Origin: an uncultured Flavobacteriales bacterium
GTDB lineage: Bacteria; Bacteroidota; Bacteroidia; Flavobacteriales_E; Vicingaceae
DNA length: 34,812 nucleotides
Direction: 5' to 3'
Assembly (NCBI GenBank): GCA_905479995.1
Contig: CAJQON010000043.1
Location: 1 to 34,812 of the forward strand
Shown one piece after another: positions 16,908-25,404 of this stretch. Every line of letters begins with the position of its first letter. Positions within the stretch are counted from its first letter, which is position 1. Below the pieces are notes generated by a model, which saw only the letters and a program-made list of their open reading frames with translations, did not search any database and was not told where the DNA came from. Made by a program: the position numbers and the translations under genes.

Positions 16908-19900
16908 ATGAAGAAATTTTTGACTCTTACAGCTTTAACTATTGCATTATTAAGCGCTTACTCTCAAAATACGTATTACAAAAAAGTAACACAGCTTGGA
17001 CATTTAAATCTAAATGATGGGATAGTAACTTCAGATAACAACTCCATTATAATAGGAAGTATTAACAATGGTTTAAGTATAGGGTCTCCATTTATTGCAA
17101 AAATGGATGTTAATGGTGATACGATTTGGACTAAAACCTTTCTTAACCTAGGAACACGAATATCTTCTAGTTTTAACAAAGTTGTAGAGTTAGCTAATGG
17201 CAATTTAATTGCTTCTGGTGCTCATGTAAATGTAACTGATCAAACGGAACCTATTGTAATAGAAATATCTCCATCGGGAGCCGTAATTAATGAAAAGAAG
17301 TTTCCAATTAATTTTTTAGGTAATTATGGAATGATTGCTCCTAGCACAGCAATTATTGAAACAGATGGAGTTAACTCCTTTGTTGCTTATGGATCTGGAT
17401 GGAATGATGGAGGCTTTCCTAGAAACTCGTATGGCTACCTTAATATAGCTAAACTGGATCAAAACTTAGATACCCTTTGGACAAAGAAAATGGACCTAAC
17501 CCCTGAAATTAGCTTTGATATGAACGTTGGTCTAATTCTGCACTCGATTAAATTAACCAATACTGGAGCCATAGTATTGTTGTATCAAGCACAAACTGGT
17601 ACAGGAATAATCCCTAACAGTATGCCTTATTTTGTTAGTAAACTATCCAATACAGGAGACTTAATTAATAGCTACAAACTGACTACTACGGATAACAGGA
17701 AGAACATCTACCTTTCTTCTATTACCATTTTAGACAATCACAACATGTACCTAACTGGTCAAATTCAATCAGACTTAAGTTCTCTTACAGCTAATGCTTC
17801 TATCCTAGAGTTAGATTCAAACCTTAACATCGTTAATAAAGCTGTTTATTTTGACACTAGAGGAACAAGTGAAGCAATGATTCAATTAACGAATGGAGAT
17901 TTCTTAATGGCACTGTCTGGATCTAGTTTTGCGCCCTTAACCCAAAAGCCCGCTATCGTTAAATTTGATGCTAACTTAAACATGAAATGGATCAAACAGT
18001 ATGGGTCTGCATCTACAACTATTTGTAACATTGATGTAGACCAAAATAAAAACATTCATTTATTCGGAGGATCTCGAATTTTCTCAACAGCCAATTACTT
18101 TAGTGGACTTATCTTAAAAGCCGATTCAAACGGAATAATTCCTAGTTGTATAGAAAGCTTTAATTCTTTGAACATCGATTCTATGATTGTTCTTCAAACT
18201 GCTACGGCAAACTATATCATTAGTGCAGATACAATTACCACAACAACATCAATTGCTCCTAGTGCAGCAATTATTGAAACAGAGAGTTTAGAAATAAGTT
18301 TTACTGACTCTATAATCCAGCCACTGTGTAATGGCCAGCAAGGTGCAATAGATTTAACAATGCTTAGCGCTAATACTCCTCATATTTTTACATGGTCTAA
18401 TGGAACTTCGGCTGAAGATTTAAGTGACTTTTCATCAACTTATTCTGTTATTATTACAGACAAACACAATTGTGTGCACCTTGATACCTTTAATTTAATT
18501 GAACCAAATGTAATAGGAGCAAACTTTACATCAACCAATGTAAATTGTTTTGGTGCTGCAAATGGAACAATTGATTTAACTGTTACTGGAGGTACACCAG
18601 GCTATACTTATAGCTGGACTAATCTTGCTTCTACTGAAGACTTAACCAATCTTTCTGGTGGATTTTATCAAGTAACTATTTCTGACACCAATGGATGTCA
18701 AAAGGTGGTTGGTATTTCTGTTACGGAACCACAACAACTAATTTCGGTTGTAACAAAAACCACTCATGCAAGCTGTAATAATGTTTGTGATGGAGAATTA
18801 GTTTGTTTTGCATCTGGAGGAATGCCTCCTTATACTTATTTATGGAATGATGTATTAGCACAAACTACTGATACTGCAATTGGCTTATGTGATGGACAAT
18901 ATTTTGCAACAATTACAGATTCCAACGGATGTCAAACCTATGTAAATGGAATGGTAACAGAACCTATCGCTTTAACTTCTTCAATGTGGGAATCTCCAAC
19001 AGAATGTGGTTTAAGTAATGGTGCTGCAGGTGTTACACCAAACGGTGGAACCTTACCTTATAGCATTGTCTGGTGGGGAACTTCAGTTACTAACGATACT
19101 ATTACTGGTAGAGATTTTGGTCAGTCTGGAGTTAATGTTATTGATGGAAACGGTTGTTTATTAAGAGATTCAATTGACATTACAACAACAACACTTGGAA
19201 ATGAAGAATGCTTAGTTTCTGTTAGTGCTTCTAATCAAAACAGAATTATTTGGGAAAAGCCTATAGCTTCAAACATTTCAGGGTATAATATTTATAGAAA
19301 TGTAGCAAGTACTTATACATTAATTGCTTTTCATCCTTATGATTCTCTTAGTGAATACACCGACCTAAGTTTTGGTGTAGATCCTAATGTAACATCTTAC
19401 CGATACAAAGTTTCTGTTGTGGATACGTGTGGTTTTGAAAGTGGATTAAGTTTCTATCATGAAACAATTCATTTAACTGCAAATCTTGGTGTTGGGGGAG
19501 AAGTTAATCTTATTTGGGATGATTATGAAGGCGCTTCTTTTAGCAGTTATAATATTATGTTAGATTCGACAGGAACAGGTAATTATAATCTATTGGCTTC
19601 TGTTGCTGTAGGAAGTTTCACTTATACACATTTAACTCCACCGCAAGATTCTGCTGAATACATTATTGAAGTTGTTTTAGATAGCACATGTACTTCTACT
19701 CAAAAAGCAAATCATAATACAACCAGAAGTAATAAAGGGAAAGTACAAAGTGTATCAACTGGAATAATTGATCAAGTACTACATAATTCTGTAATATATC
19801 CTAACCCTGCCAAAAACCTATTAAACATTCAATTACCAGGTGCCAAAACATGGAGCTACCAAGTATTTAATGTTGTAGGAAAATTAGTAACTGAAACAAC

Positions 19901-20015
19901 TAATATTGATTCAGAAAATAAAACGTTAAACATTGAAGCTTGGCCAAAAGGCATGTACATTATTAACTTGCAAATAGGAAAACAAAGCATCAACAAAAAA
20001 ATAGTGAAGCATTAA
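16908..20015 (+). CDS. Secreted SprB-repeat protein with type IX secretion C-terminal sorting domain
   Basis: The 1035-residue product starts with a signal peptide (FLTLTALTIALLSAYSQN). Residues about 20-440 are a beta-propeller-like region built of strands such as GDTIWTKTF and DLDTLWTKKM, common in Bacteroidota exoproteins. Residues about 470-770 hold four SprB-type repeats, each opening with a CN/CF/CG plus NG motif and having YTYxW and I(T/S)DxNGC; the fourth is divergent. Then an Fn3-like module (ISGYNIYRNV, YRYKVSVVDTCG) and, from about 955, a type A sorting domain: IYPNPAKNLLNIQ, VVGKLV, GMYIINLQ, with Lys-rich end. The protein should be exported by the T9SS and sit on the surface or be released; SprB repeats occur in the gliding adhesin. 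Adhesion is inferred. Confidence 0.92.
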   Translation: MKKFLTLTALTIALLSAYSQNTYYKKVTQLGHLNLNDGIVTSDNNSIIIGSINNGLSIGSPFIAKMDVNGDTIWTKTFLNLGTRISSSFNKVVELANGNLIASGAHVNVTDQTEPIVIEISPSGAVINEKKFPINFLGNYGMIAPSTAIIETDGVNSFVAYGSGWNDGGFPRNSYGYLNIAKLDQNLDTLWTKKMDLTPEISFDMNVGLILHSIKLTNTGAIVLLYQAQTGTGIIPNSMPYFVSKLSNTGDLINSYKLTTTDNRKNIYLSSITILDNHNMYLTGQIQSDLSSLTANASILELDSNLNIVNKAVYFDTRGTSEAMIQLTNGDFLMALSGSSFAPLTQKPAIVKFDANLNMKWIKQYGSASTTICNIDVDQNKNIHLFGGSRIFSTANYFSGLILKADSNGIIPSCIESFNSLNIDSMIVLQTATANYIISADTITTTTSIAPSAAIIETESLEISFTDSIIQPLCNGQQGAIDLTMLSANTPHIFTWSNGTSAEDLSDFSSTYSVIITDKHNCVHLDTFNLIEPNVIGANFTSTNVNCFGAANGTIDLTVTGGTPGYTYSWTNLASTEDLTNLSGGFYQVTISDTNGCQKVVGISVTEPQQLISVVTKTTHASCNNVCDGELVCFASGGMPPYTYLWNDVLAQTTDTAIGLCDGQYFATITDSNGCQTYVNGMVTEPIALTSSMWESPTECGLSNGAAGVTPNGGTLPYSIVWWGTSVTNDTITGRDFGQSGVNVIDGNGCLLRDSIDITTTTLGNEECLVSVSASNQNRIIWEKPIASNISGYNIYRNVASTYTLIAFHPYDSLSEYTDLSFGVDPNVTSYRYKVSVVDTCGFESGLSFYHETIHLTANLGVGGEVNLIWDDYEGASFSSYNIMLDSTGTGNYNLLASVAVGSFTYTHLTPPQDSAEYIIEVVLDSTCTSTQKANHNTTRSNKGKVQSVSTGIIDQVLHNSVIYPNPAKNLLNIQLPGAKTWSYQVFNVVGKLVTETTNIDSENKTLNIEAWPKGMYIINLQIGKQSINKKIVKH

Positions 20016-20079: not shown

Positions 20080-23000
20080 ATGAGATTTCTATCCTTAATT
20101 ATTGTTTTAACATTCCCAATTCTTCTTTTGGGACAAAACGATAAAAACATACATAGCAGTACCTCTTTAATTAAAAACTACGCGCCAAAAACATACAAAG
20201 CAAACCCTCAAATATTTTCAATTATTCAAGACAAAAGAGGCGTAATGTTTTTTGCGAATCAACTTGGTGTAGTTGAATATGATGGCACAAATTGGAATTT
20301 AATTAAAACAGGAAATCATCATGTCTTAAATATTGCACAAGACAACAATGGTCAAATATATGTGCTTTGTGATGGTGATTTTGGAATACTCATACCAAAT
20401 GCTTCAGGTAAATTAATTTTTCAATCTAAAATTGAATTATTTAAAGAATTGGTTACGGATTATTCATTTCTTGAATTTGATGCGATAGTCTTTGATAAAG
20501 ACCGAATATACATTGAGACTTCTAAAGGGTTATATCTTCTTCAAAAAAACAAAATAACACCACTAAAACTTACTGGTAAGGTAGCTTTTATAAAAAAGGT
20601 AGATGAAACCATTTTCCTTCAAATTATAGGAAAAGGATTACATCGATTAGAAGATGGAGTAGTAAAACCAATTCAACAAGGAACACTATTTAAAGAAGAC
20701 CTAATTGTTGACATAATCAAGTTTAATAATAACGTAAACATTATAACCCGTGAAAAAGGTATTTTTAAAATATCCAGCAAACAAAACATACAACCTCTTA
20801 ATCCTTTAGCCGGAAATATAATTACTTCTTCCCAAAACAACAGAAACATTCACCTAATATTAGGAACGTCAAATGGTATTATAATTTTAGATAAAGACTT
20901 AGCTGTTTATAAAGAAATAGGGGTTAGGGAGGGTATTTCAGATGCTACAATAAAAGAGGTTTATTTAGACAATGAAAATAACTTATGGATAGGTACACAA
21001 AATGGGATTAGCAAAGTTGAAATTGATACTCCAATAGAAGTATTCAATAAAAACAACAGTCTCAATGGATCAATAGAAGCTGTGGAGGGATTTAACAACA
21101 CTATTTTTTGTGCAACAGGAAATGGCGTTTATTACTTAAGCAACGGAGGCAATGCTGTAAAAATTAAAAACCTTGAATCTGACTGTTATGGATTATCATC
21201 ATTGTCTTTTGGAAGTGACACCACCTTATTGGTAGCCGAAGTAAATGGGGTTTACCAGATAAATCAAAACTACAAAGCCAAACAAATCTCTTCTGGAGGA
21301 CCTTATATGTTTAAGCAATCTCCATTAAATACAAATGAAATATTTACAATTCACTATGATGGCCTATCGAAGTTTAACTATGAAAATGGAAAATTGGTAG
21401 AGGAGAATTACATCAAGAGTTTTAGTAAAGGAGAAACGCATAACTTTTTCATTCAACAAGATGGTACTATTTGGATTGGGACGTTAGATGATGGAATTTA
21501 TCAAACTACAGTAAGCACTTATACAGATTTAGCTAAATACAAGCATTATGACGCAGATGATGGCTTGCCAAATGAACAATGCTATCTATTTGAACATGGT
21601 GATAATATTTATGCAGGAACAAATCTTGGATTGTTTATTTTTCAAAATGACAAATTTATTCCCTCTGTTGCTTTTTCTTTTGGATCAATTAAAGGAATGA
21701 AAGGGATTCATCGAATTAGTGAAGATGAAAAAGGAAACATTTGGGCCGTCTTATTTGATGAGAAAAATAATTATGAGATTGGTTATTCTGCATTAGTTGA
21801 TGGGAAATATAAATGGAATCATCACGACTTCATTAAGTATTCTGAAGAAATTGTGCATGATTTTTATCATTCTATTAGTGGAAACACATGGTTTGGAGGC
21901 CCGAATGGCTTAATAAAATACGACAATAGCTATTCAAAGAAAAAGGTCCAAAAATTCAATTGTATTGTACGTAATATAGCACTTGGAGACAGTATCCTTT
22001 TTGGTGGCTCTTCAAAATTAAACAGTAAAAATATAGTTAACATTAACTTTGCTGGTAACACTCCAATTGCAATCGAATATGCAGCACCAACATTTATTGA
22101 CGAGAAGAAAACGGTCTATAGTTTTTATTTAGAAGGATTTAATAATACTTGGAGCGATTGGAGCTCGAGGACATTAAAAGAATACAACCTTAATGAAGGG
22201 ACCTATGTTTTTCATGTAAAAGCCAAAAATATTTTAGGAGTAGAATCAAACATTAGCTCTTATTCAATTGTAGTAGCTCCGCCTTGGTACAGAACATTTT
22301 TAGCAATATTTTTTTATGTTATTACTATTGGACTTCTGATATACGGCTTAATTAAGCTAAGTGTAAAAAGAGTAGCTAAGTTGAATAAAAAACTGGAAGA
22401 TACCGTAACATCTAGAACAAAAGAAATTGAAGCTCAAAAACTAGAAGCAGAAAAGCAGCGTGATGTGATTGGCGAAAAAAACCAAGAAATAATGGATTCT
22501 ATTGCTTATGCAAAACGGATCCAATCTGCCATACTACCACCAGCAAAAGCAGTAAAGGAGTTTTTACCAGAATCCTTTATCCTTTATAAACCAAAAGATG
22601 TTGTAGCTGGAGACTTCTATTGGTTAGAGTCCATTTGTCCTAGTGAGCATCTCGAACCAACTATAAATGAATCATCATTGCGAGGCACGAAGCAACCTTC
22701 TGAAAATGAACAGATTGCTTCACTCCAAAAAAGTTCCGTTCGCAATGACGTAATTTTATTCGCAGCAGCAGATTGTACTGGACATGGAGTACCAGGAGCA
22801 TTAGTAAGTGTTGTTTGTAACAATGCTTTAAATAGGAGTGTTAGAGAATATGGATTATCTGATCCAGGTAAAATTTTAACAAAAACAAGAGATATTGTAA
22901 TTGCTGAATTTGAAAAGTCTGAAGAAGTCGTGAAAGATGGGATGGATATCGCATTGTGTTCATTAGAAGGAATGACATTAAACTATGCAGGAGCGCATAA

Positions 23001-23331
23001 TCCCTTATGGATAATAAGAAATGGTGAAATTATAGAGACCAAAGCCAATAAACAACCCATAGGACAATTTGATAACCCTGAGCCCTATACAACACATACA
23101 ATTGAGTTGGAAAAAGGAGATACTATTTACCTCTTTTCAGATGGATATGTTGATCAGTTTGGTGGAGAAAAAGGCAAGAAGTTTAAAGCCAAAGCATTTA
23201 GATCGTTGTTATTGTCTATACAAGATAAAAGCATGGAACAGCAAAAGGTTATTATAGATAATACTTTTGAAAAATGGAAAGGTCACTTAGAACAAATAGA
23301 TGATGTATGCGTTATAGGCGTTAGCATATAA
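20080..23331 (+). CDS. Membrane sensor with Reg_prop propeller, Y_Y_Y domain and SpoIIE/PP2C phosphatase output
   Basis: The 1083-residue product begins with a signal peptide ending LLLGQ. Residues about 25-660 are two-component-regulator propeller repeats (ENNLWIGTQNGISK, DGTIWIGTLDDGIYQ). A Y_Y_Y domain follows at about 675-730 (YSFYLEGFNNTWSDWS), a transmembrane helix at about 738-760, a coiled coil to about 805 and then a SpoIIE-type Ser/Thr phosphatase (SIAYAKRIQSAILPP, GDFYW, AAADCTGHGVPGA, GMDIAL, LFSDGYVDQFGG, DDVCVIGV) with all metal-binding Asp in place. It probably reads an extracytoplasmic ligand and dephosphorylates a partner, as anti-sigma antagonists or other phosphoproteins, in the cytoplasm. 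Residues about 852-890, between GDFYW and LFAAADCTGHG, are an extra in-frame insert made of a palindromic repeat. Confidence 0.92.
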   Translation: MRFLSLIIVLTFPILLLGQNDKNIHSSTSLIKNYAPKTYKANPQIFSIIQDKRGVMFFANQLGVVEYDGTNWNLIKTGNHHVLNIAQDNNGQIYVLCDGDFGILIPNASGKLIFQSKIELFKELVTDYSFLEFDAIVFDKDRIYIETSKGLYLLQKNKITPLKLTGKVAFIKKVDETIFLQIIGKGLHRLEDGVVKPIQQGTLFKEDLIVDIIKFNNNVNIITREKGIFKISSKQNIQPLNPLAGNIITSSQNNRNIHLILGTSNGIIILDKDLAVYKEIGVREGISDATIKEVYLDNENNLWIGTQNGISKVEIDTPIEVFNKNNSLNGSIEAVEGFNNTIFCATGNGVYYLSNGGNAVKIKNLESDCYGLSSLSFGSDTTLLVAEVNGVYQINQNYKAKQISSGGPYMFKQSPLNTNEIFTIHYDGLSKFNYENGKLVEENYIKSFSKGETHNFFIQQDGTIWIGTLDDGIYQTTVSTYTDLAKYKHYDADDGLPNEQCYLFEHGDNIYAGTNLGLFIFQNDKFIPSVAFSFGSIKGMKGIHRISEDEKGNIWAVLFDEKNNYEIGYSALVDGKYKWNHHDFIKYSEEIVHDFYHSISGNTWFGGPNGLIKYDNSYSKKKVQKFNCIVRNIALGDSILFGGSSKLNSKNIVNINFAGNTPIAIEYAAPTFIDEKKTVYSFYLEGFNNTWSDWSSRTLKEYNLNEGTYVFHVKAKNILGVESNISSYSIVVAPPWYRTFLAIFFYVITIGLLIYGLIKLSVKRVAKLNKKLEDTVTSRTKEIEAQKLEAEKQRDVIGEKNQEIMDSIAYAKRIQSAILPPAKAVKEFLPESFILYKPKDVVAGDFYWLESICPSEHLEPTINESSLRGTKQPSENEQIASLQKSSVRNDVILFAAADCTGHGVPGALVSVVCNNALNRSVREYGLSDPGKILTKTRDIVIAEFEKSEEVVKDGMDIALCSLEGMTLNYAGAHNPLWIIRNGEIIETKANKQPIGQFDNPEPYTTHTIELEKGDTIYLFSDGYVDQFGGEKGKKFKAKAFRSLLLSIQDKSMEQQKVIIDNTFEKWKGHLEQIDDVCVIGVSI
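22673..22750 (+). repeat. Palindromic dispersed repeat inserted in frame inside the PP2C domain
   Basis: The ends are inverted copies: TCATTGCGA at 22675-22683 and its complement at 22740-22748, with a second pair around GAAGCAA (22689-22695) and TTGCTTC (22715-22721). It codes for SLRGTKQ and SVRND, phrases I know from spurious and fused coding regions in many Bacteroidota, where this repeat is intergenic. The insert may reach back to about 22633. The frame stays open throughout. Confidence 0.75.
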
Positions 23332-23375
23332 CGTATAGTTTACCCTGAGCCCAGCCGAATGGGCGTTATAGGTGT
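23318..23375. repeat. 3' flank repeat, copy A
   Basis: This stretch, covering the last codons of the sensor-phosphatase gene and 44 bases beyond, is similar to 24040-24098. Both have TATAACGTATAGTTTACCCT, then a form of the dispersed element that ends in CGAATGGG, then GGTGT. Together they mark a local duplication of the gene's 3' end. Confidence 0.75.
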
Positions 23376-23625
23376 TCGAATACAACGTATAGCTTTTTGA
23401 AAAAATCACTTAAACAACTTTGTACTACAACCCGCTTTAACACAAGATTCATTAAGTTTCAACCATACAACAATCTGCCAAATATACCCGTAATCACCTA
23501 TGCGTTAAATACTTATTGTTGATAATTATTTTTAATAAAATCTAAATTGTATCGTAAAAATTCAATAAATTTATCATAAAGGTTTAATAATAAACCAATA
23601 ACTAATTTACTAATAACTAAAAAAA
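23376..23625. other. Non-coding gap between the sensor-phosphatase and the small gene
   Basis: No coding frame is convincing. AT-rich; contains a short inverted repeat at 23581-23596 (GGTTTA with TAAACC) close upstream of the small gene. A promoter for that gene must lie here, but I see no clear TAnnTTTG. Confidence 0.5.
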
Positions 23626-23850
23626 ATGGACTTAACATTACACGAATTTGTATCAATAGTAAGGAAAGATAAACGATTTCTTGTTTCTAAATACACCCCA
23701 AAAGAAATATTAACACTCATAGATGAAGCCCTAGAAAAACATTACATAAAAAATGCCAATGTTGACAGAGGAGAATACATTATGGATATGCCTGGTTATA
23801 TATTCTTAGATGGAGAAGAAAAAAGTTCTTCAAACAAAAAAAAGGCATAA
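23626..23850 (+). CDS. Small hypothetical protein, 74 residues
   Basis: The product (starting MDLTLHEFVSIVRKDKRFLV) is hydrophilic, with an amphipathic region (YTPKEILTLIDEALEKHYI), an aromatic middle (DMPGYIFLD) and a Lys/Ser tail. There is no signal peptide or membrane segment. I do not recognise it. Amino-acid composition and codon use look like real protein, and an A-rich stretch precedes the ATG as is usual for translation starts in this phylum. It lies between the intact sensor-phosphatase and a decayed second copy of its C-terminus; its stop is two bases before the first recognisable residue of the remnant. It could be the leftover of an insertion between two paralogues. Confidence 0.5.
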   Translation: MDLTLHEFVSIVRKDKRFLVSKYTPKEILTLIDEALEKHYIKNANVDRGEYIMDMPGYIFLDGEEKSSSNKKKA

Positions 23851-23851
23851 G

Positions 23852-23996
23852 CTCAAAACCTTAGCATTACAGTTTAATGCACTAACAAATATTCCAATGG
23901 AGCAACAAAAAGCCATTATAGATTAAGCCTTTTGAATCTTGGAAAGATAATCTAGAACAAATAGATGATGTATGCGTTATAGGCGTAAGCGTATAA
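23852..23996 (+). pseudogene. Remnant of a second SpoIIE/PP2C sensor-phosphatase C-terminus, frameshifted
   Basis: Translation gives ALQFNALTNIPMEQQKAIID, then after skipping one T, KPFESWKDNLEQIDDVCVIGVSV and a TAA at 23994-23996. This aligns without gaps to the last 30 or so residues of the intact gene (MEQQKVIIDNTFEKWKGHLE, QIDDVCVIGVSI). Only the last 45-50 codons are kept and one extra base breaks the frame. Start coordinate is the first recognisable residue, not a real start. It shows that a paralogous sensor-phosphatase once stood here. Confidence 0.82.
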
Positions 23997-24009
23997 CGCA
24001 TACATCATC
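23964..24009. repeat. 18-bp perfect inverted repeat with 10-base loop
   Basis: 23964-23981 is the exact reverse complement of 23992-24009. The left arm is the codons for DDVCVI of the remnant. There is no T-run, so it is not an ordinary terminator. Confidence 0.85.
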
Positions 24010-24039
24010 AACTGTAATGTGAGGATCTATTCCAATATT

Positions 24040-24098
24040 GCGTAAGCGTATAACGTATAGTTTACCCTAAGCGATAGTCGAATGGGAGTTGTCGGTGT
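24040..24098. repeat. 3' flank repeat, copy B
   Basis: Second copy of 23318-23375 (see there). It begins with a 16-base sequence, GCGTAAGCGTATAACG, that also occurs at 23983-23998, so the 41 bases between them (with the right arm of the 18-bp hairpin) look inserted. Confidence 0.75.
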
Positions 24099-24159
24099 GA
24101 GAATTTAACGAAGTTAAAGATCGAATAGGGCCTAAATTAATTCTTCTTCTAGGTTTTGA

Positions 24160-25404
24160 TTATGCCGAAGTACTCAATTCGTAAATTTCTAAACCAAAAG
24201 AACTTGCAGCAGCAATTAAGTGATCTAAGATATCCGATTGAATACCTTCATAAACTTCCCACTCAGTAGTAGTAGCAAAACAATAAATTTCTATTGGCAA
24301 ACCATATTGATTGGATTGCAATTGCCGAACCATCAAAGTCATCTCTTCATTAATTTCAGGATGGTTTATCAAATACAATTCAGCATACTGTCTAAACACC
24401 CCAATGTTAGTCATGTTTCGACCATTAATATTTTCAGATTTATCAATCTTTAAAGAAGAGTTTTCAGCCTCAATTAGCTGTTGGCGTTCACTTACATATG
24501 CCTCAATTAACTGAAAATGCTTGAACTTTTCAAGCATAACAGTATCTGCAAAACTAATGCTATTTGGTCTAATGTAAATGTGACGTTTAATTCTTCGTGC
24601 TCCAGTCTCTTGCATACCTCTCCAATTCTTAAAAGAATCCGAAACCAATGCATAAGTTGGAATAGTGGTAATGGTGTTGTCCCAGTTTTTAACCTTTACT
24701 GTATTCAATGTTATTTTAGTAATGTTACCATCCGCACCATACTTTTCCATCTCTACCCAATCACCAACTCTAACCATGTCGTTGGTAGCAATTTGAATGC
24801 TTGCAACAAAGCCAAGAATAGTATCTTTAAAAATAAGTAACCCAACCGCAGTCATGGCTCCAAAAGCACCCATAAGGTATATAGGCGACTTTCCTAATAC
24901 TAATGACAATATAAATATTCCCGCAATAAAATATATAATCAGTCGAGCCAACTGAAAGTATGACTCTATCGGCTTGTCTTTAAATTTTTTAGCATTAGAA
25001 AAATAGTACTCTAAAGCATTAAATACCGCAACCGCAACACTAGTAAATACAATAATAATGTAAATGTGTATTATTTTTTCTATTGCAGTAATAAGGTAGG
25101 GAAAGTCTAAAAAGACAAAGCCAATGCTCCAACTTAGTAATATAGCTGGAAAGAAATGGGACAGTTTAGCAAAAACTCTTTTTTCAATTAGAACATCGTC
25201 CCACTTGTTTTTTGTTTTCAAAAATATTTTCTTAACCCCTTCACGTAAAATATTTTTTGCGATAAAATCTACAATACCTAGCAGAAATAGCAATACTACA
25301 ACCATAATAAGTAGTCGAAGGTAAGGTGCTGTTTCTTGGCTAACACCTTGTTTAATTAGCCATCCTGATAGGTTTTTTGTTGTATTGATGATGTTGTTTA
25401 ACAT
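24160..25404 (-). CDS. MscS-family mechanosensitive ion channel (YbdG-like)
   Basis: From the ATG at 25404 the product has 414 residues. Five hydrophobic segments fill the first half (LRLLIMVVVLLFLLGIVDFI; FFPAILLSWSIGFVFL; IIHIYIIIVFTSVAVAVFNA; then two more), followed by the pore-lining helix LMGAFGAMTAVGLLIFKDTI and the beta-domain MVRVGDWVEMEKYGADGNIT with VPTYAL-like TTIPTYALVSDSFKNW. The C-terminal domain is of the larger YbdG/YnaI type. It should open on membrane tension to release solutes after hypo-osmotic shock. A GTG start at 25431 would add nine residues, but a TAcaTTTG box at 25409-25416 covers that stretch, so the ATG is preferred. Confidence 0.92.
   Translation of the reverse strand: MLNNIINTTKNLSGWLIKQGVSQETAPYLRLLIMVVVLLFLLGIVDFIAKNILREGVKKIFLKTKNKWDDVLIEKRVFAKLSHFFPAILLSWSIGFVFLDFPYLITAIEKIIHIYIIIVFTSVAVAVFNALEYYFSNAKKFKDKPIESYFQLARLIIYFIAGIFILSLVLGKSPIYLMGAFGAMTAVGLLIFKDTILGFVASIQIATNDMVRVGDWVEMEKYGADGNITKITLNTVKVKNWDNTITTIPTYALVSDSFKNWRGMQETGARRIKRHIYIRPNSISFADTVMLEKFKHFQLIEAYVSERQQLIEAENSSLKIDKSENINGRNMTNIGVFRQYAELYLINHPEINEEMTLMVRQLQSNQYGLPIEIYCFATTTEWEVYEGIQSDILDHLIAAASSFGLEIYELSTSA

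Follow-up and report, generated by a model that had tools for sequence, protein, structure and literature searches.

The window analysed here, a stretch of 34,812 nucleotides from an uncultured Flavobacteriales bacterium of the Vicingaceae, contains a gene for a Reg_prop / Y_Y_Y sensor with a C-terminal SpoIIE (PP2C-type) phosphatase domain (Table 1). The domain was assigned to PF07228 (Pfam, E 5e-22), and the best Foldseek match for its PP2C fold was SiaA-PP2C (6k4e, E 5.8e-20). An earlier note, made from the letters alone, had described an in-frame repeat inserted in this domain, with the reading frame kept open and the metal-site residues retained. The gene is indeed intact, and the Asp residues in the GDF, DCTGHG, SDG and DD positions, which we take to be the expected metal ligands, were invariant in a 60-row alignment that included the host protein.

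The gene upstream (16908-20015) encodes a SprB-repeat protein with a Por secretion tail. Just downstream of the host gene, at 23860-24000, a second SpoIIE C-terminus, MEQQKAIID*AFESWKDNLEQIDDVCVIGVSV, with an internal stop, was recognized by eye; it is probably the remnant of a decayed tandem paralogue. Segments of the type GCGTTATAGGCGT(T/A)AGC.TATAACGTATAGTTT recur where the intact SpoIIE gene and the decayed one end (23309-23395 and 23974-24063), in four copies, the other three being 70-85% identical to the first. An Rfam search over 22400-24200 gave nothing relevant, the single match (23936-24038) being below threshold. SpoIIE-domain matches to the host protein are numerous in each of the 14 genus members (21-40 per genome), and the length of the loop between the GDFYW and DCTGHG motifs is very variable across the SpoIIE domains of the genus.

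Table 1. Features of the phosphatase gene and of the element within it (positions in the window)
Feature	Position	Strand	Basis or remark
Host gene, Reg_prop / Y_Y_Y sensor with C-terminal SpoIIE (PP2C-type) phosphatase domain	20080..23331	+	open, 1083 aa
GDFYW motif, strand before the insert	22609..22623	+	strand 48-55 of predicted model
Loop extension before the element, about 10 residues beyond the common form, outside the repeat	22624..22672	+	loop lengths; similar stretch in paralogue (L002)
Palindromic element, 78 bp, 26 codons, in frame as (S)SLRGTKQPSENEQIASLQKSSVRND(V)	22673..22750	+	covariance model R1, 67.4 bits, E 1.1e-14; fold z -4.05
Outer inverted end TCATTGCGA	22675..22683	+	letters read; complement TCGCAATGA at 22740-22748
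Inner inverted repeat GAAGCAA	22689..22695	+	
Inner inverted repeat TTGCTTC	22715..22721	+	
Outer inverted end TCGCAATGACG, complement of CGTCATTGCGA	22740..22750	+	
DCTGHG motif, 3' of the insert	22771..22788	+	

The palindromic element in the phosphatase hairpin

The element lies in the hairpin that joins the GDFYW and DCTGHG motifs. This stretch spans 60 residues in the host protein vs 24 in 94 of the 144 distinct stretches read. About 26 of the 36 excess residues come from the element, and about 10 from the loop extension that precedes it. The earlier note had counted about 39 extra residues and bounded the insert at 22633-22750; its placement between the two motifs holds, while the size and the left bound are revised, the element itself being the 78 bp from 22673 to 22750. 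The inverted ends that it named are present.

Covariance model R1, from whose sources the host copy was absent, recovered this copy in a search of the whole genome at E = 1.1e-14. The arm pattern TTGCGAGGNNCGAAGCAA occurs in it without a mismatch, 0.13 matches being expected at up to three mismatches. Folded as a single DNA strand, the element reached -15.1 kcal/mol (z = -4.05 vs shuffles); the copy in a paralogous gene of the same genome has a weaker fold (z = -1.66), equalled by 13 of 200 shuffles. The host insert is a true repeat, beyond chance. In the structure prediction, which the earlier note had proposed, the insert forms a low-confidence segment between confident strands (block pLDDT 54-64).

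An orthologue free of the insert, as also sought by that note, was found in genome G005, with 68% identity over residues 1-850 and a plain 24-residue loop. The element was recognizable in 2 of the 144 GDFYW/DCTGHG loops read, both in its own genome (host and paralogue), and the loop is thus not one common to distant relatives. The long loops NTQNTNP (L020), SLEGGLKVGDNHPSSSPQGE (L021) and IANEIKQPAKNDEGA (L023) gave no covariance-model match at E up to 0.1; from its letters, the last may be a decayed copy. Repeat-like expansions at this loop were also seen in G006 (NTQNTNPNTQNTNPDTQ, L020) and in G007 (SLEGGLKVGDNHPSSSPQGE, L021).

Copies in this genome and in relatives

Of the 51 exact-pattern copies in the genus loci read, 34 served as sources for the covariance model. 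The host copy, its paralogue (L002), 15 unaligned copies and two dropped ones (L159 and L170) were left out. The sources include the aroA copies of G001, G005 and G007, the DUF2064 copy of G012 and the C24 copy of the window's own genome, so the model scores of these copies are partly given by construction.

The further copies expected by the earlier note were found in the genome by both blastn and the covariance model. At E up to 0.01, the model recognized 10 distinct places through 14 strand matches, the host and C24 among them. Two of the places are SpoIIE genes, with long frames spanning the element; a third spanning frame, of 101 aa (L356), overlaps a trp gene gap on the other strand; and at the remaining seven no frame spans the element with 25 codons on each side. 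The matches on C49 and C2, among the weakest by the model, resemble another repeat by eye and were set aside. With blastn, a second copy at 80% identity was found in another SpoIIE-domain gene. Weaker matches fell in intergenic DNA at two sites (E 0.0026 and 0.018), and another two were at chance level. At C24, the paired ends of the intergenic copy are long, ACGTCATTGCGAGG...CTTCGCAATGACGT.

Searched in 60 genomes, the exact pattern CATTGCGAN{40,70}TCGCAATG was present in 25, among them 11 of the 14 genus members; its backwards control had no match in any of the 60. By covariance model, copies were present in 12 of the 14 genus genomes. Copies read were 62-92 bp long, a range partly set by the search pattern. 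Of 58 exact-pattern copies in the genus, 52 were examined, 51 in loci read plus the one in the window. Seven of the 51 fall within a frame of 150 codons or more, counted from stop to stop; one of these, L150, was dropped (see below). With the host copy added, 7 of the 52 are located in an open gene: the aroA copies of G005, G007 and G001, a SpoIIE-type copy of G007, the DUF2064 copies of G001 and G012, and the host copy. The open-frame test detects only copies that keep a long frame open, and being in frame is therefore built into these counts.

For the 44 other copies among the 51, contact with frames of at least 150 codons was scored. Such a frame reaches one end or both of 29 copies, and neither end of 15. 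Nine of the 44 lie between two such frames on the same strand, which may represent two neighbouring genes or one broken gene. At least one of the six frames was open in 45 of the 51 copies. The mean of 1.53 open frames, vs 1.33 in shuffles, indicates that the element is just slightly more open than its composition predicts.

Several candidates for in-frame copies were rejected. In L150 the frame is long but the element precedes the gene's own ATG (lspA-like by eye); L056, judged by eye, resembles an ordinary match to coding sequence, in a DUF4143-like gene. The frames of L161/L344 and L338 are short and doubtful, and that of G007:C87, of 164 aa, is of doubtful reality. The matches at G035:C26 and G017:C9 are weak peptide matches in ordinary-looking proteins, and those at G002:C11 and G002:C38 contain a stop.

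A transposase link was sought with PF01797 (Y1 transposase), which had no match in the own genome and at least one in 42 of the 60 genomes searched. An 8-base element end was present at 8 of 49 distinct Y1 loci of relatives (by set, 3 of 30 and 5 of 20 loci, L114 being in both sets), and a pair of ends flanking the Y1 gene at none of the 49. Single ends lie within 300 bp of the gene in L096 and L111, at about 670 bp in L117, and beyond 1 kb in the other five. By a rough estimate, chance alone would give at least as many with six 8-base words over about 3 kb, and we claim no association with a RAYT.

In-frame copies in aroA and other enzymes

The paralogue with the same insert and the invasion of other enzymes in the genus are new relative to the earlier note. 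In-frame hosts comprise SpoIIE-type phosphatases (at three loops), aroA, a DUF2064 protein and a glycosyltransferase-like protein. The peptide-profile search that contributed to this list covered one reading-frame type, among the matches listed, and the genes named are a lower bound.

In the SpoIIE-type proteins, loop A, before FRPKDVVSGDFYW, carries the element in G007, and a near relative in L219 has the plain form. Loop B, between GDFYW and DCTGHG, is the site in the host and its own-genome paralogue. Loop C, after NPLWIIR or its equivalent, is the site in G007 and L218, and the predicted model again placed the insert as a low-confidence segment between confident strands (block pLDDT 57-62). 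The first G007 SpoIIE-type protein also contains a second in-frame copy, and the second G007 protein two copies in frame. Run over 79 named loci, the covariance model matched at five places, of which two are in frame in tandem SpoIIE-type genes (L218, NC_groundwater_320 MAG) and three (L201, L215, L223) are outside long frames. The tandem paralogues, at 1847-2779 and 4001-4897 of L218, have the element at the same loop C in each, and the two copies are nearest to each other, like the host's paralogue pair.

The DUF2064 protein was invaded in two species, G001 and G012; PF09837 matches the G001 protein at E 1.4e-28. These N-terminal cases were missed when 30 codons were demanded on each side, and were found by peptide profile together with frames of at least 150 codons. 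In both species the gene has an ATG before the element, with an apparent overlap, by eye, with the stop of the upstream frame, so the element is probably translated there; a TTG within the element could be an alternative start. In G002, a glycosyltransferase-like protein (PF13528, PF04101) contains an in-frame copy.

A second repeat type, CHPELVEG / CHPESVEG, was also seen in frame, in L260 (G001 aroA) and L313 (a G007 SpoIIE-type gene). It stands alone in another AroA loop, and within or adjoining the palindromic element in both SpoIIE copies. CHSEPVEG is part of a similar composite in the G002 glycosyltransferase-like protein.

A readable aroA loop was present in 13 of the 14 genus genomes. 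The element lies before the DHRMAMAFA motif in four of them (G001, G005, G007 and G010), a degenerate form is present in G006, and eight, the own genome included, lack it. Outside the genus it was absent from all 15 aroA loops read; of the 30 aroA loci in all, two, L277 and the truncated L282, were unreadable. Its presence requires four changes on a quick tree, at least three by well-supported branches. As few changes were needed in 213 of 500 label shuffles, and the presence label is thus not clustered.

The aroA copies of G001, G005 and G007 were compared at the DNA level. Scores between aroA copies were 53.0 (G005-G007) and 50.0 (G001-G007), and the G001-G005 pair did not rank among the five best. 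Against copies outside genes, the top scores were 55.5 (G005), 52.5 (G007) and 53.0 (G001). On these scores an aroA copy resembles intergenic copies and other aroA copies to about the same degree, although for G007 the best match, by half a point, is the aroA copy of G005. At the protein level, AroA of G005 shares 65-67% identity with its counterparts in G007 and G001. All three copies score high with the covariance model but were among its 34 sources, and the shared orientation of the four aroA copies decides nothing on their origin. We read the aroA pattern as suggesting that the element entered one site repeatedly and fairly recently; a single old gain, followed by losses and conversion, is possible.

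Origin of the insert and likeness to known palindromes

The host insert is very probably a copy of a dispersed palindromic element that lies in frame in the beta-hairpin of the phosphatase as a tolerated passenger. The element is an inverted pair of CGTC-tagged arms, located mainly outside genes in the genus and occurring more widely in the class, that landed between two strands of the SpoIIE/PP2C-type domain. Its length and frame left the host gene open, with about 26 residues now coded. It may have moved as non-autonomous mobile DNA via an enzyme acting in trans, with selection presumably keeping the in-frame, stop-free copies in flexible loops, and the loop may then have passed between the two phosphatase paralogues by gene conversion. 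The host loop is already variable across relatives. The evidence favours tolerance of the insert by the enzyme.

A broader reading, which we put forward tentatively and hold to be on the doubtful side, is that one element repeatedly and independently enters the same enzyme loops, with conversion between paralogues afterwards, and so acts as a source of new loops with its own site preference. It is based on the one aroA loop occupied in at least three lineages and on the three loops of SpoIIE-type proteins.

For the history of the two own-genome copies, a quick tree was made from 137 domains without the loop. The host domain falls in one group (SH-aLRT 96) with the G005 orthologue and four further rows, apart from the insert-bearing paralogue. 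Between host and paralogue, dS is 2.35 over 237 codons of the flanking domain, which is saturated, intermediate (0.94) over the 16 loop codons before the element, and 0.32 over 25 codons of the element (dN 0.10). This difference suggests that the element was probably copied between the paralogues, or inserted late in both. Third-position identity is 0.73 over the 41 loop and element codons, and 0.59 in the best 41-codon stretch of the 3' flank. Late in the gene, blocks of 14-15 codons reach third-position identities of 0.73 and 0.86, so the exchange may extend beyond the loop.

Independent insertion of near-identical elements into the same loop of both genes is a rather unlikely account. On the quick tree the surrounding domains do not pair as sisters, repeated hits at one aroA site are possible, and the all-position identity of the element is no better than that of the best 25-codon flank stretch (0.867 in both), all of which this account would accommodate; but the 16 preceding codons are also alike (third-position identity 0.69 vs 0.52 in the flanks), and among 59 copies the two elements are mutually nearest (56 vs 48 for the next). 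A single insertion, later passed to the other paralogue, would fit the sequences.

That the loop was instead adopted for a function, as a docking or regulatory segment selected in both paralogues, appears improbable. The insert is present in two paralogues of one genome, SpoIIE-type proteins are hit at three loops, and comparison of the paralogues gives the element a dN/dS of about 0.3, not 1, which makes some constraint on its peptide possible; that ratio, however, is based on about 10 changes between two sequences. The 144 loops vary freely in length and sequence, similar peptides occur in unrelated enzymes, and the predicted model has low confidence there, which all speak against adoption. 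It is extremely improbable that the insert is an ordinary coding loop with a chance or convergent resemblance to the repeat, since, even with a hairpin that is often long and of low complexity in relatives, the match to the model is full-length at E 1.1e-14, the DNA folds at z -4.05, and intergenic copies of the same DNA are present in the same genome.

This Bacteroidota lineage, which has an ordinary genome size, many species and natural empty and filled versions of the same gene, offers a system for comparing the tolerance, site choice and reuse of inserts. Stretches such as SLRGTKQ, IASFLAMT and RND in the proteins of these bacteria are repeat-derived, which matters for alignments and structure prediction.

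In-frame palindromes were reportedly first described in Rickettsia, whose reduced genomes might explain their tolerance. Later they were described from other phyla too (PMC3733652). We presume a resemblance between CGTCATTGCGAG and a Rickettsia RPE sequence. Like RPE-4, RPE-6 and RPE-1, the present element is a short dispersed palindrome that stands in frame in unrelated proteins, sometimes twice per protein, and the same element is present outside genes as well. Unlike the RPEs, it belongs to a Flavobacteriales lineage, and the likeness drawn here is one of description. The comparison with Rickettsia drawn in the earlier note was apt: PMC3733652 counts RPE-4 and RPE-6 as CGTC-tagged palindromes, and the copies here begin with CGTC. 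This tag was present at 89 of the 102 ends of the 51 exact-pattern genus copies; the host copy has CATC on the left and GACG, the complement of CGTC, on the right. In-frame RPEs are also the subject of a review (PMC10969869).

PMC3733652 places CGTC-tagged REPs in five phyla, including Bacteroidetes, with intragenic cases in many species, inserts that often code for 20-30 residues, and no transposase link. The element shares with these the tag, the missing transposase link, some intragenic copies and, in the copies aligned, the inverted-pair organization. In that paper stems measure 8-9 bp and loops 4-5 nt, and the tails are mostly CCA-like. The element differs: its 26-nt arm folds with a 5-bp stem (ATTGC/GCAAT) and a 10-nt loop, at z -0.68 vs shuffles (two arms folded), and its consensus arms end in GCAATCT, those of the host copy in GCAACCT. 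The 38-nt long arm folds otherwise, in the test for AT first and second stem pairs. All 34 aligned copies are inverted pairs, but the search pattern demanded two inverted ends, and single units would escape it. On the stem, loop and tail measures of the arms folded the element departs from the CGTC-tagged REPs, and we do not file it in one of their four families. Like GTAG REPINs, or REPs with a RAYT, it consists of paired inverted short palindromes in several to many copies, probably moved in trans; unlike them, it has the tag CGTC and not GTAG, and no RAYT link was seen.

SpoIIE-type phosphatases and aroA are not named in the available part of PMC3733652, and in the open-licence literature we found no paper on such inserts in SpoIIE-type phosphatases, AroA or the Vicingaceae. 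The letters of the element matched 23 open-licence papers; among the matches listed, all were to one 10-base word, in papers unrelated by title. By analogy, the element works like an RPE. In-frame palindromes are already known, as the RPEs of Rickettsia and as CGTC- and GTAG-tagged REPs (PMC3733652), and the present element is a variant of them.
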